Origin: Planctomycetia bacterium
GTDB lineage: Bacteria; Planctomycetota; UBA1135; UBA2386
Direction of reading: 5' to 3'
DNA: 42,078 nucleotides
NCBI GenBank assembly: GCA_005776475.1
Contig: SXPB01000179.1
Span: forward strand, 1-42,078
Below, in pieces: positions 5,559 through 8,715 of the stretch. Each line of letters begins with the position of its first letter. The first letter of the stretch is position 1. Both the position numbers and the translations under genes were made by a program. The notes beneath the pieces are model-generated. The model did no database searches. It was not told the origin of the DNA and was given only the letters and a program-made list of their open reading frames with translations.

Positions 5559-7520
5559 ATGGCAGCACGCATCGGCATCGACACCGGCGGCACGTTCACC
5601 GACGTGGTCCGTTGGTCGAAGCAGGGCGTCACCGTGCACAAGCTGCCCTCGACCCCCAGCGACCCTTCGCGCGCCGTGTTGGCGGGGATCGCCGCGGTGC
5701 GGCAGCACGCCGACGAAGCGGTCGACGTCGTGCACGGCACCACCGTCGGCCTCAACGCGGTGCTGACCGGCTCGCTGGCGCGCACCGTGTTCGTCACCAA
5801 CCGCGGCTGCGAAGACCTGATCGAGATCGGCCGCCAGGAGCGCACGGACCTGTATGCGCTCGCCCCCCGCCGGCCGGTGCCGCCCGTGCCGCGCCGGCTG
5901 CGCGTAGGCGTGCACTGCCGGCGCGGCCCGGGCGGCACGATCGACACGCCGCTGAGCAACACCGAGATCGCGCGCACCGTCGCCACTGTTCAGGCCCTGG
6001 CGCCGGCGGCGATCGCGATCGGCCTGTTGCACTCGCCGGCCGACCCCAGCGACGAATTGCGCCTGCAACGGGCGCTGCAGAAGGCGATGCCCGGCGTGCC
6101 TTGCACGGCGAGCGCTTCGCTGCACGCCGCCTTCGGCGAGTACGAACGCTTCTCGGCCGCGATCCTCAACGCCGCGATCGCCCCCGTCGTCTCGGGCTAC
6201 ACGCGGCGCCTGCAAGCCCAGCTGGGCAACGGCCGCCTGCGCTTGCTGCGCAGCAGCCTCGGCATCCTGCCGGCCGACGAAGCCGCCGCGTTCCCGGCCC
6301 GCGCGATGTTCTCCGGCCCGGCGGGCGGCGTGCTCGCGACCGGCCAGATCGCGCGGGCGATGCGGTTACCGCGCGTCGCCGCGTTCGACATGGGCGGCAC
6401 GTCGGCGGATCTCTGCCTCGTCGAGACGGCAACGCGCGCCCACGACGGCGCCACCATCGCCGGGTTGCCGTTGCCCTTGCCGACGGTGCCGGTGCACACC
6501 GTCGGGTGCGGCGGCGGCAGCATCGCCTACGTCGATCGCGGCGGCGCCTTGCGGGTCGGACCGGAGAGTGCAGGGGCGGTGCCCGGACCCGCGTGCTACG
6601 GCAAGGGCTCGGACGCCACCGTCACCGATGCGCATGTCGCCCTCGGCCACCTCGGCACCGACACCCTGCTCGGCGGCGGGTTCCCGATCGACGTCGATGC
6701 CGGCGTGCGTGCCATCGAACGCCTGGCGAAGAAGCTCGGCATGCGCAGCGCCGACGCCGCCCGCGGCATCCTCACCGTCGCCGACGTGACGATGGCCCGC
6801 GCGATCTTGGTGATCACCGCCGAACGCGCCGTGGATCCGGCGTCGGTGCCGTTGCTGGCGTACGGAGGCGCCGGTGGCCTGCATGCGGCGGGATTGCTGG
6901 CGCGCCTCGGCATGCCACACGCGGTGCTGCCGCCATTGCCAGGCGCGTTCTCGGCGCTCGGATTGGCATTGGCCGGCGAATCCGCCGAACTCAGCACGGC
7001 CGTCGGCACCCGGTTCGACGCGCGCTCCTGGCCGACGCTGCGCGACCTGGCCCGTGACCTGGCCAAACGCGCCAATTCCCTGCTGTCCGGCCCCGGTCGC
7101 ACCCACCTGGAAGCGGCCGTGCGCTACCGCGGCCAGGGCGCCGCCCTCCGGCTACCCCTGCGCCGAAGCCTGGCGGCCGATTTTGCCCGCGAGCACCAAC
7201 GCCTGTACGGCTTCCAGACCGATGCCCCGATCGAAGTCGTGCACCTGACGGCGCGCGCCGAACAGCCGGCGCGATCGGCGCCTCGGAACCTGTTCGCTCC
7301 GGCGAATTCCGCAACCTTTTCGTCGCGGAGATTCCGCCAACGGAGGCCGCCGGTGGGCGGCATTCCACTTCCCGTCCACGCCCGCTTGCCGGTCGGGCAA
7401 CGTGTGCAAGGTCCGGCCATCATCGAAGAAACGACCGCCACGACGCTGGTGCCGGCGGGGTTCGAAGCGCACGCGACCCCGTTCGGGATGGTGCTGCGGC
7501 AACGTCGGCCACGGCGCTGA
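5559..7520 (+). CDS. Hydantoinase/oxoprolinase family protein, HyuA-like
   Basis: The 653-residue protein belongs to the HyuA/oxoprolinase N-terminal half family, ATP-dependent enzymes that open cyclic amides or, in relatives, carboxylate ketones. Landmarks are RIGIDTGGTFTDVV (N-terminal phosphate-binding loop), VHGTTVGLNAVL, FSGPAGGVLATGQIARA, FDMGGTSADLCLVET, VGCGGGSIAYVD and PGPACYGKGSDATVTDAHVALG. The track ORF begins at 5274, but the ATG at 5559 gives the conserved N-terminus and sits right after a -10 box. No HyuB partner is visible in the window; usually HyuA and HyuB subunits are adjacent. The substrate cannot be told from the sequence: N-methylhydantoin, 5-oxoproline, a carboxylase role or something else are all possible. 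Confidence 0.88.
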   Translation: MAARIGIDTGGTFTDVVRWSKQGVTVHKLPSTPSDPSRAVLAGIAAVRQHADEAVDVVHGTTVGLNAVLTGSLARTVFVTNRGCEDLIEIGRQERTDLYALAPRRPVPPVPRRLRVGVHCRRGPGGTIDTPLSNTEIARTVATVQALAPAAIAIGLLHSPADPSDELRLQRALQKAMPGVPCTASASLHAAFGEYERFSAAILNAAIAPVVSGYTRRLQAQLGNGRLRLLRSSLGILPADEAAAFPARAMFSGPAGGVLATGQIARAMRLPRVAAFDMGGTSADLCLVETATRAHDGATIAGLPLPLPTVPVHTVGCGGGSIAYVDRGGALRVGPESAGAVPGPACYGKGSDATVTDAHVALGHLGTDTLLGGGFPIDVDAGVRAIERLAKKLGMRSADAARGILTVADVTMARAILVITAERAVDPASVPLLAYGGAGGLHAAGLLARLGMPHAVLPPLPGAFSALGLALAGESAELSTAVGTRFDARSWPTLRDLARDLAKRANSLLSGPGRTHLEAAVRYRGQGAALRLPLRRSLAADFAREHQRLYGFQTDAPIEVVHLTARAEQPARSAPRNLFAPANSATFSSRRFRQRRPPVGGIPLPVHARLPVGQRVQGPAIIEETTATTLVPAGFEAHATPFGMVLRQRRPRR

Positions 7521-7555: not shown

Positions 7556-7583
7556 TTGACATCATCCCTGTTGGAGCTATTCT
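7556..7583 (+). promoter_or_regulatory. Sigma70-type promoter in a convergent intergenic gap
   Basis: TTGACA (7556-7561), a 16-base spacer and TATTCT (7578-7583) make the best sigma70 match I found in the window. It starts 35 bases after the hyuA-like stop and points toward a gene on the opposite strand. No plausible protein follows it, so it most likely drives a non-coding RNA. Confidence 0.55.
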
Positions 7584-7589
7584 CCTTCG

Positions 7590-7800
7590 CACTTGCCCAC
7601 GGGTTGAGCAGGCCGCCTTCTTGCGGCTTCGGATGTTGGACCCGAGGGCAGAGAACCAAACGAACCACCCGCTGCGCTGGCGTTGCAACGACGCGAGCAG
7701 GGCGGGGAAGACGACACACTGCCGGGGGTTGTCCGCGACGGACGTAAAAACTTGACTCTCCTTCTTCCCCTTTTCCCGAAGTTTAACCCCCGGCTTCCTT
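7590..7800 (+). ncRNA. Candidate structured non-coding RNA of unknown family
   Basis: This gap of 346 bases between two convergent genes has visibly lower GC and no credible protein. After the promoter come four helices. (a) TTGCCC-A-CGGGTT (7593-7605) pairs with GACCCG-A-GGGCAG (7639-7651), 12 pairs around one A-A mismatch. It encloses (b) GCCGC-CTTCTT-GCGGC (7612-7627). (c) GCGTTG-CAA-CGACGC (7680-7694) lies inside CCCGC/GCGGG (7668-7672 with 7702-7706). (d) GCCGGGGGTT (7721-7730) pairs perfectly with AACCCCCGGC (7785-7794) and encloses the hairpin GTCCG-CGA-CGGAC (7731-7743). The last stem is followed by TTCCTTTCCCC, a weak terminator-like tail. I could not match it to tRNA, tmRNA, 6S, SRP or RNase P RNA. 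The 3' end is a guess. Confidence 0.45.
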
Positions 7801-7817
7801 TCCCCTGCTGCTAGCCC

Positions 7818-7866: not shown

Positions 7867-8715
7867 TCAGCGGCGTTCCGCTTCCGCAGCGCGCAACATG
7901 GCTCGTGCCGGCGCATGGTCGGGATCGAGTTCGACCACCCGACGCCAGTCGATGATCGCCGACGCCACCGCTCCCTGACCGTACCGCAGCAAGGCGCGCT
8001 GGTGCAGCAACCGCACGAGCCGGAGGCGCACCCGCCCATCGTCGGGAAAGCGGCGCGCCAGCTCCAGCAACTGCAGCACGGCGTCTTCGAGTTGCCCTTC
8101 GCCGAGGCGCCGCTCGACGGCGATCAGCCCGGACGAAACCGGGTCGGCCCCTTGCGGCAACACCACGGACCGCGTCGGCGCCATCTCGATTGATGGGACG
8201 GACGGCGGCTCCGACACGAGCATGGGCGACGGGTCAGTGACGGGTTTGGTCTCGATTTGCGGCACGGCCGCAGTCGCCGCAGCAGGATCCAGCGCGGCGG
8301 CCGGCTCGGCGGCGGTGCGCGGAGTGTCGCCGCCGGACGCAGCGGTTCCGCCGAACAGTTGCAGGCGGTGCTCGGTCGCGTGCATCAGCACATCCAGTCC
8401 CGGCAGCTCAGGCCACACTTCCGCGGCGCGACGCAGCACCACGAGCGCCGCTTCGTCGCGCCATTCGGAACGCAGCAGCAACCCTTCGAGGATCATTTCA
8501 TGGCCGCGCCGCATCTGCCGCTCGACGTCGAGCGCCAACGCCCTCGCCTGCGGAAACCGTGCGTGCTCGACCGGAACGCCATCCAAGGCCCGCAGCGCCT
8601 GCGCCAGATCGCGGCGCTGCAGGGCCCGCTCTGCTTGCAGGAACGGATCCGCGGGCTTCGTCACGCACGAGGCAAGGAGCGCGAGCACGGCCGCCACAGC
8701 CAGCCGTGCCCTCAC
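7867..8715 (-). CDS. TPR-containing lipoprotein
   Basis: The 282-residue product starts at a GTG that overlaps the stop of the HD-GYP-like gene (GTGA), so the two are coupled. The N-terminus MRARLAVAAVLALLASC is a lipoprotein signal, with LASC as lipobox and the Cys at about residue 17. Two helical repeat areas follow. The first is at about residues 25-115 (LQAERALQRRDLAQALRALDGV). The second is at about 195-280 (LIAVERRLGEGQLEDAVLQLL, then YGQGAVASAIIDWRRVVELDPDHAPA). They resemble tetratricopeptide repeats and are split by a Pro/Ala/Thr-rich linker. Such proteins are usually scaffolds at the membrane. Pairing with a sensor-like HD-GYP protein suggests they act together, but how is unknown. 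Confidence 0.8.
   Translation of the reverse strand: MRARLAVAAVLALLASCVTKPADPFLQAERALQRRDLAQALRALDGVPVEHARFPQARALALDVERQMRRGHEMILEGLLLRSEWRDEAALVVLRRAAEVWPELPGLDVLMHATEHRLQLFGGTAASGGDTPRTAAEPAAALDPAAATAAVPQIETKPVTDPSPMLVSEPPSVPSIEMAPTRSVVLPQGADPVSSGLIAVERRLGEGQLEDAVLQLLELARRFPDDGRVRLRLVRLLHQRALLRYGQGAVASAIIDWRRVVELDPDHAPARAMLRAAEAERR

Follow-up and report, generated by a model that had tools for sequence, protein, structure and literature searches.

The locus raises the question of what is encoded, and to what end, in the gap between two converging genes of a planctomycete genome. In the window, which is the whole stretch of 42,078 nucleotides that was analysed, a hydantoinase A gene on the forward strand ends at 7520 and a TPR-like lipoprotein gene on the reverse strand ends at 7867; the initial annotation had placed between them a structured RNA, unassigned to any family and served by its own promoter, in a region of lower GC content and without a protein. 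The convergent gap is present and its GC content is indeed lower (64-66% across the gap vs. approximately 70-73% in genes), and the promoter TTGACA-N16-TATTCT, of sigma-70 type and, like the parts of the RNA described below, on the forward strand, is found at 7556-7583 with 10 of 12 matches to the consensus (0.1 expected in shuffles). Promoters with at least 9 of 12 matches also stand upstream of 11 of 27 relatives (0.45 expected), and the predicted fold of 7580-7800 reaches -93 kcal/mol (z = -3.4), a stability equalled by none of 200 shuffles.

The position of the promoter and a conserved module at the 3' end point to an RNA gene of approximately 200-215 nt (7590-7805), which would be transcribed from its own promoter, start near 7590 and end at or just past a T-rich stretch, TTCCTTTCC, at 7795-7803. 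Located 3' of helix P1, this stretch may, judged from the relatives, act as a weak intrinsic terminator; longer T-runs occupy the equivalent place in several of them, for example L020 and L037, and a terminator scan of the window detected no intrinsic terminator at 7795-7803.

With respect to known RNA families, Rfam 15 gave no match to the window at the gathering score and chance-level hits only at E<=10, while a search of 15 relatives returned only two tRNAs, neither overlapping the element, and ARAGORN detected no tRNA or tmRNA gene in the window. The earlier impression that the RNA fits none of the common families is thereby upheld for Rfam 15, and as none like it is described in the open-access PMC literature searched, the RNA family appears to be new. 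The window fits the definition of this family, a P1/P2/P3 junction with GGUU and GUAAAA junction strands and a pyrimidine-rich loop L3, and scores 101-111 bits with the covariance models R1-R3, for the building of which its sequence was among those used.

The 5' part of the predicted RNA consists of two hairpins joined by a linker. Hairpin 1 (7593-7651) contains the 12-pair helix with a single A-A mismatch that had been claimed (7593-7605/7639-7651), 7593-7598 pairing with 7646-7651 and 7600-7605 with 7639-7644 on either side of A7599-A7645, and encloses an inner hairpin at 7611-7628. The linker GAGAACCAAACGAACC (7652-7667), unpaired in the fold, leads to hairpin 2 (7668-7706), which the fold and the comparison with close relatives delimit; the two hairpins listed at the outset, at 7611-7628 inside the helix and at 7668-7706, are both real. 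Folding predicts a comparable first hairpin for several close relatives, in which linkers loosely like GAGAACCAAACGAACC can be seen by eye; distant members lack it, and in other families and some phages little or nothing lies, by eye, between promoter-like sequence and P1. As both 5' hairpins recur among close relatives of the window only and distant members lack them, the 3' junction and its loop are taken as the functional core.

Conservation is concentrated in the 3' module (7721-7794), where the helices P1, P2 and P3 meet in a three-way junction and P3 closes a loop of 25 nt. A CACAC motif immediately 5' of P1 (7715-7719) is retained, by eye, as such or as a close variant in most phage copies and most copies of the window's own family (f1). 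P1 pairs 7721-7728 with 7787-7794, and all eight pairs change on both sides in relatives; the junction strand J1/2 (UU, 7729-7730) is nearly invariant in the alignments A1, A4 and A5 described below, a simple pattern finding GGUUG here in 58 of 67 members. In the P2 hairpin (7731-7743) the four modelled pairs all change on both sides, the strand J2/3 (7744-7747) begins a GUAAAA motif (7744-7749) recognizable in 58/67 members, and the P3 hairpin (7748-7784) is formed by pairing of 7748-7753 with 7779-7784, again with changes on both sides at 6/6 pairs. The perfect long-range stem of 10 pairs around a third hairpin that had been proposed exists in the window (7721-7730/7785-7794), but its conserved pairs number only eight; the last two are probably peculiar to the window sequence, as the UU on the 5' side hardly ever changes whereas the bases opposite it differ freely between relatives, and the stem encloses two hairpins, P2 and P3, rather than one.

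The loop L3 (7754-7778) is the conserved 25-nt pyrimidine loop GACTCTCCTTCTTCCCCTTTTCCCG, which reads GACUCUCCUUCUUCCCCUUUUCCCG in the window and recurs exactly or nearly so within the family and on 13 viral contigs. Across the 67 members L3 measures 21-50 nt and is composed of 44% C, 41% U, 10% A and 4.5% G, and the combination of GGUU-P2-GUAAAA with a G-poor, C/U-rich loop is common to nearly all of them. The loop core, of UUCCC(C)UUU type in 57/67 members, is duplicated in L245, which carries ATTTTCCCCTTTTC twice, and in part also in L123. The extra host copies L123:2924-3027 and L124:2942-3047, second paralogues in the genomes G018 and G020, have an L3 enlarged by a 6-nt duplication (CTCTCCTTCTCCTTCTTCCCC) and a longer P3.

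That selection acts on the structure is evident from comparison of the relatives. When 61 genomes were searched at the DNA level, 7713-7800 was recovered from most members of the window's family, mostly at 87-98% identity, and the sequence upstream of it from only two close relatives. In A1, a structure-blind MAFFT alignment which is not fitted to the model and hence free of bias towards it, 98.3% of cells are paired and 10 cells carry double changes versus 1.1 in shuffles. The alignments fitted to the model, and thus leaning towards it, show the same on a larger scale: with phage and extra copies added (A3), 17 of 18 pairs have double changes (108 cells vs. 21.8 in shuffles), with other families added (A4), all 18 module pairs (210 vs. 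55.6), and 20 members found later and standing outside model building (A5) contribute 71 such cells versus 19.3. In each alignment the signal is lost when the partners are slid by 1-3 columns, and constrained folds of 34 individual copies arrive at the same junction in most but with different stems, P2 being missing or deviating in L045, L049 and L047. The conservation and compensatory changes for which the initial annotation had proposed to look in the stems are thus found in the 3' module.

A protein-coding reading of either strand was considered, as a 224-aa reverse-strand open reading frame covers the module and its translation recurs in relatives; it was rejected on account of 1-2 nt indels in P2 and L3 of L011, L023 and L024 and of sequence changes that track base pairing, and the statement that the region holds no protein stands. 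The claim of a structured RNA that is unassigned and has a promoter of its own is likewise supported by the conserved, covarying and Rfam-negative 3' module, and comparative sequence analysis establishes a conserved, covarying RNA family with gene-like placement that is present in phage contigs.

Model R1 recovers the RNA in 29 of the 34 genomes of the window's family, the loop being identical or nearly so in approximately 29 of 34, as well as in the two f7 genomes and the one genome each from f4 and f3; the numerous f5, f6 and f8 genomes of this order, by contrast, gave no match. Of 392 genomes from across the phylum, 43 carry it according to R2 and 50 according to R3; they come from about 15 families, and the covariance-model E-values are rough owing to short calibration. 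Genomes usually carry one to four copies, often two to four. Relatives in public assemblies are nearly all metagenome-assembled genomes labelled Planctomycetota; single matches labelled Panacagrimonas and Candidatus Eisenbacteria (L083:2914-3000 and L064, the latter on the complement) may be mis-binned or transferred, and mis-binning is suggested for L064 by its near identity with the planctomycete copy L034. In one genome, two extra copies in inverted orientation (G016:C79; L039:953-1038 on the forward and L039:3004-3092 on the reverse strand) flank a two-gene segment of approximately 2 kb (proteins of 236 and 395 aa) like the ends of a cassette.

Each family keeps its own genomic neighbours, and those of different families are unrelated. 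In f1 the RNA mostly lies between hydantoinase and TPR/HD genes, in f27 and f47 it faces the 3' end of a convergent gene identified by its sequence as smc, and in f63 and f71 the neighbours are different again. These family-specific neighbours, together with members that comprise little beyond promoter and junction and with the single copy on each of the 13 viral contigs described next, argue for a trans-acting RNA rather than a riboswitch.

The RNA is shared with viruses. The exact loop occurs in 10 IMG/VR contigs and a looser pattern added three, which makes 13 viral contigs, every one of them with exactly one copy; those tested encode phage proteins, for example DNA polymerase, helicase, primase, terminase or integrase. 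Scanning viral sequences more broadly with GTAAAA-N-TTCCCCTTTTCYCC brought up three matches, none of which has the fold, and no substantial match was found in collections of named phages and plasmids; L121 and the chance matches L142-L145, all without the fold, were rejected as members. Among the phage modules, those of L044 and L051 lie just past a stop codon, that of L047 coincides with one and that of L046 follows tRNA-like sequence; the next ATG is a short distance downstream. In L046 (approximately 8180-8280), the preceding sequence ends like the 3' half of a tRNA (GGTTTGATTCCCCCACGGTCCACCA), and a tRNA-like transcript may end in the element. Two related phage contigs also have intergenic arrays of degenerate repeats of approximately 34 nt (L045:1200-1555 and L045:2665-3060, also L049), built from alternating half-units resembling GAGTGAGCCA and GATACCCA; one array leads straight into the P1/L3 hairpin, and the arrays are possibly a repeat RNA or a partition-like DNA array.

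The f1 loop persists letter for letter even in phage copies whose stems differ entirely. As L3 is under selection while the stems that surround it are rewritten, the loop is suggested to contact a specific partner. The reading we favour, at slightly less than even odds (a probability of roughly 0.45), is a small structured RNA that belongs to a new family, acts in trans and has its loop bound by a pyrimidine-specific protein. The three-way junction with its conserved GGUU and GUAAAA strands would keep the loop (21-50 nt, poor in G and rich in C and U) open and single-stranded; in the window, the junction would form the 3' end of a transcript of approximately 200 nt made from its own promoter. 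The RNA would be expressed, the loop would be its working part, recognized by a single-strand RNA-binding protein with pyrimidine specificity such as Rho or a cold-shock, S1/KH or RRM-type protein, and the RNA would act as a sponge, scaffold or cofactor; phages, carrying their own copy, one per sampled contig, would thereby reach the same host partner during infection.

A possible, although on balance unlikely, alternative is a trans-acting antisense small RNA whose CU-rich loop, like that of LhrC in Listeria, pairs with purine-rich ribosome-binding sites in a restricted group of mRNAs and blocks their translation. LhrC1-5 of Listeria monocytogenes and UCCC-motif small RNAs such as RsaE and RNAIII display short G-poor, CU-rich stretches with UCCC and UUUU in loops, and the LhrC motifs CUCCC(...)UUUU, one of them in the terminator loop, are resembled by the loop core CUUCCCCUUUU; moreover, LhrC is multicopy and G-poor (PMC4132741), and several of the present genomes harbour 2-4 copies. 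The UUCCC(C)UUU-type core itself amounts to an LhrC-type CU-rich UCCC/UUUU motif in a single-stranded loop, and the loop contains CUCCUU. On the other hand, LhrC belongs to a different phylum, and a GGUU/GUAAAA three-way junction, characteristic of the RNA here, is not described for LhrC in the passages of that paper considered here (PMC4132741).

The pairing expected of such an antisense RNA was not detected either. At 191 well-defined starts taken from 60 stretches of 20 kb of f1 genomes (L209-L228, L254-L293), the loop finds 7 strong sites versus 6.7 expected from 60 pyrimidine-shuffled loops, and no pairing preference for start regions is detected; its apparent anti-complementarity in a first test with mononucleotide shuffles was gone with pyrimidine-only shuffles. 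SD use is modest, with SD-like motifs at only 43/191 of these starts (15 and 24 at control positions), though the 3' end of 16S rRNA carries CCTCC. Pairing of the loop with 16S rRNA and its 3' flank was no better than that of shuffles and mostly worse, in a crude test in which the shuffles also moved G and A and so exaggerated the deficit of the loop. A strict complement of the loop occurs in its own genome only at the element itself, a wobble-tolerant 22-nt complement yields counts close to those of the reversed-pattern control in 34 genomes, no long complement is common to the family, and an exact 25-nt loop exceeds what short seeds need. On these sequence data, a pyrimidine-binding protein on a G-poor multivalent loop would fit somewhat better than antisense pairing. 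Two counterpoints apply: a generic pyrimidine-binding protein does not obviously need 25 identical letters in approximately 18 genera plus phages, and the pairing tests are compatible with a few specific mRNA targets.

It is improbable that the RNA is mainly an elaborate intrinsic terminator, or a module that stabilises the 3' ends of varied transcripts, with a loop that recruits a termination or 3'-end factor in cis. As in intrinsic terminators, a T-run comes after P1 in many of the copies from f1 and phages, clearly so in L036, L037 and L040, and the location of phage modules just after or at stop codons or after tRNA-like sequence would suit such a role. However, P1 encloses two further helices and the conserved loop, T-runs are weak in f63 members and absent in f47, and several families without a T-run end in a separate terminator-like hairpin downstream (L137, L240, L248). 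Furthermore, promoter-like sequence, seen by eye, directly precedes the junction in L159, L167 and L175, and terminators recur genome-wide, unlike this element, which is single in each viral contig and usually numbers one to four in a genome. Since P1 and the T-run are terminator-like in some f1 and phage copies, termination may account for part of the selection there.

Less probable still is a cis-acting riboswitch or leader controlling a downstream gene: some extra and phage copies do lie 10-60 nt upstream of an ATG, but in the window, as in most relatives within f1, the gene that follows converges on the RNA, a placement that largely refutes this reading, the downstream genes differ entirely between families, so that fixed co-oriented neighbours of related function are lacking, and what is conserved is a pyrimidine loop. 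Host chromosomes and phages have the same 25-bp core flanked by inverted repeats, which might point to a DNA-level site, for instance for phage attachment or at the end of a mobile element, but this reading is scarcely credible given stems compensated in a manner particular to each phage copy, junction strands conserved across families, mostly syntenic sampled f1 copies and promoters preceding the module.

Known protein-bound RNAs offer analogies for the favoured protein-bound loop. The Ro/Rsr-associated Y RNAs and YrlA are small, have a pyrimidine-rich single-stranded loop, tether a protein and also occur in phages, the loop and the phage occurrence being shared by the RNA here; their Ro-binding stem is conserved, whereas P1, P2 and P3 vary at nearly every pair, and the element is Rfam-negative. 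CsrB/RsmZ and 6S are trans-acting RNAs that sequester a protein and provide a possible mechanistic analogy as protein-binding decoys, but the GGA-loop repeats of the former and the long duplex with central bubble of 6S are lacking here, and Rfam is negative for both.

Novelty is claimed for the family, as its working mode may prove to be of a known kind, a protein sponge or a CU-rich small RNA. The family spans about 15 families of Planctomycetota, nearly all represented by metagenome assemblies, and is shared with their probable phages, in a phylum on which little small-RNA work was found in the open-access PMC literature searched. A tentative, rather speculative extension is that this phylum-wide RNA serves as the dedicated partner of a core host machine, for example of transcription termination or RNA decay, through its pyrimidine loop, and that the loop-identical copies of phages, one per genome, take over or protect that machine. 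A 25-nt loop kept letter for letter amid rewritten stems is a sharp and directly testable sign of a specific partner, the identity of which would reveal to what use a dedicated RNA is put by these bacteria and their viruses.
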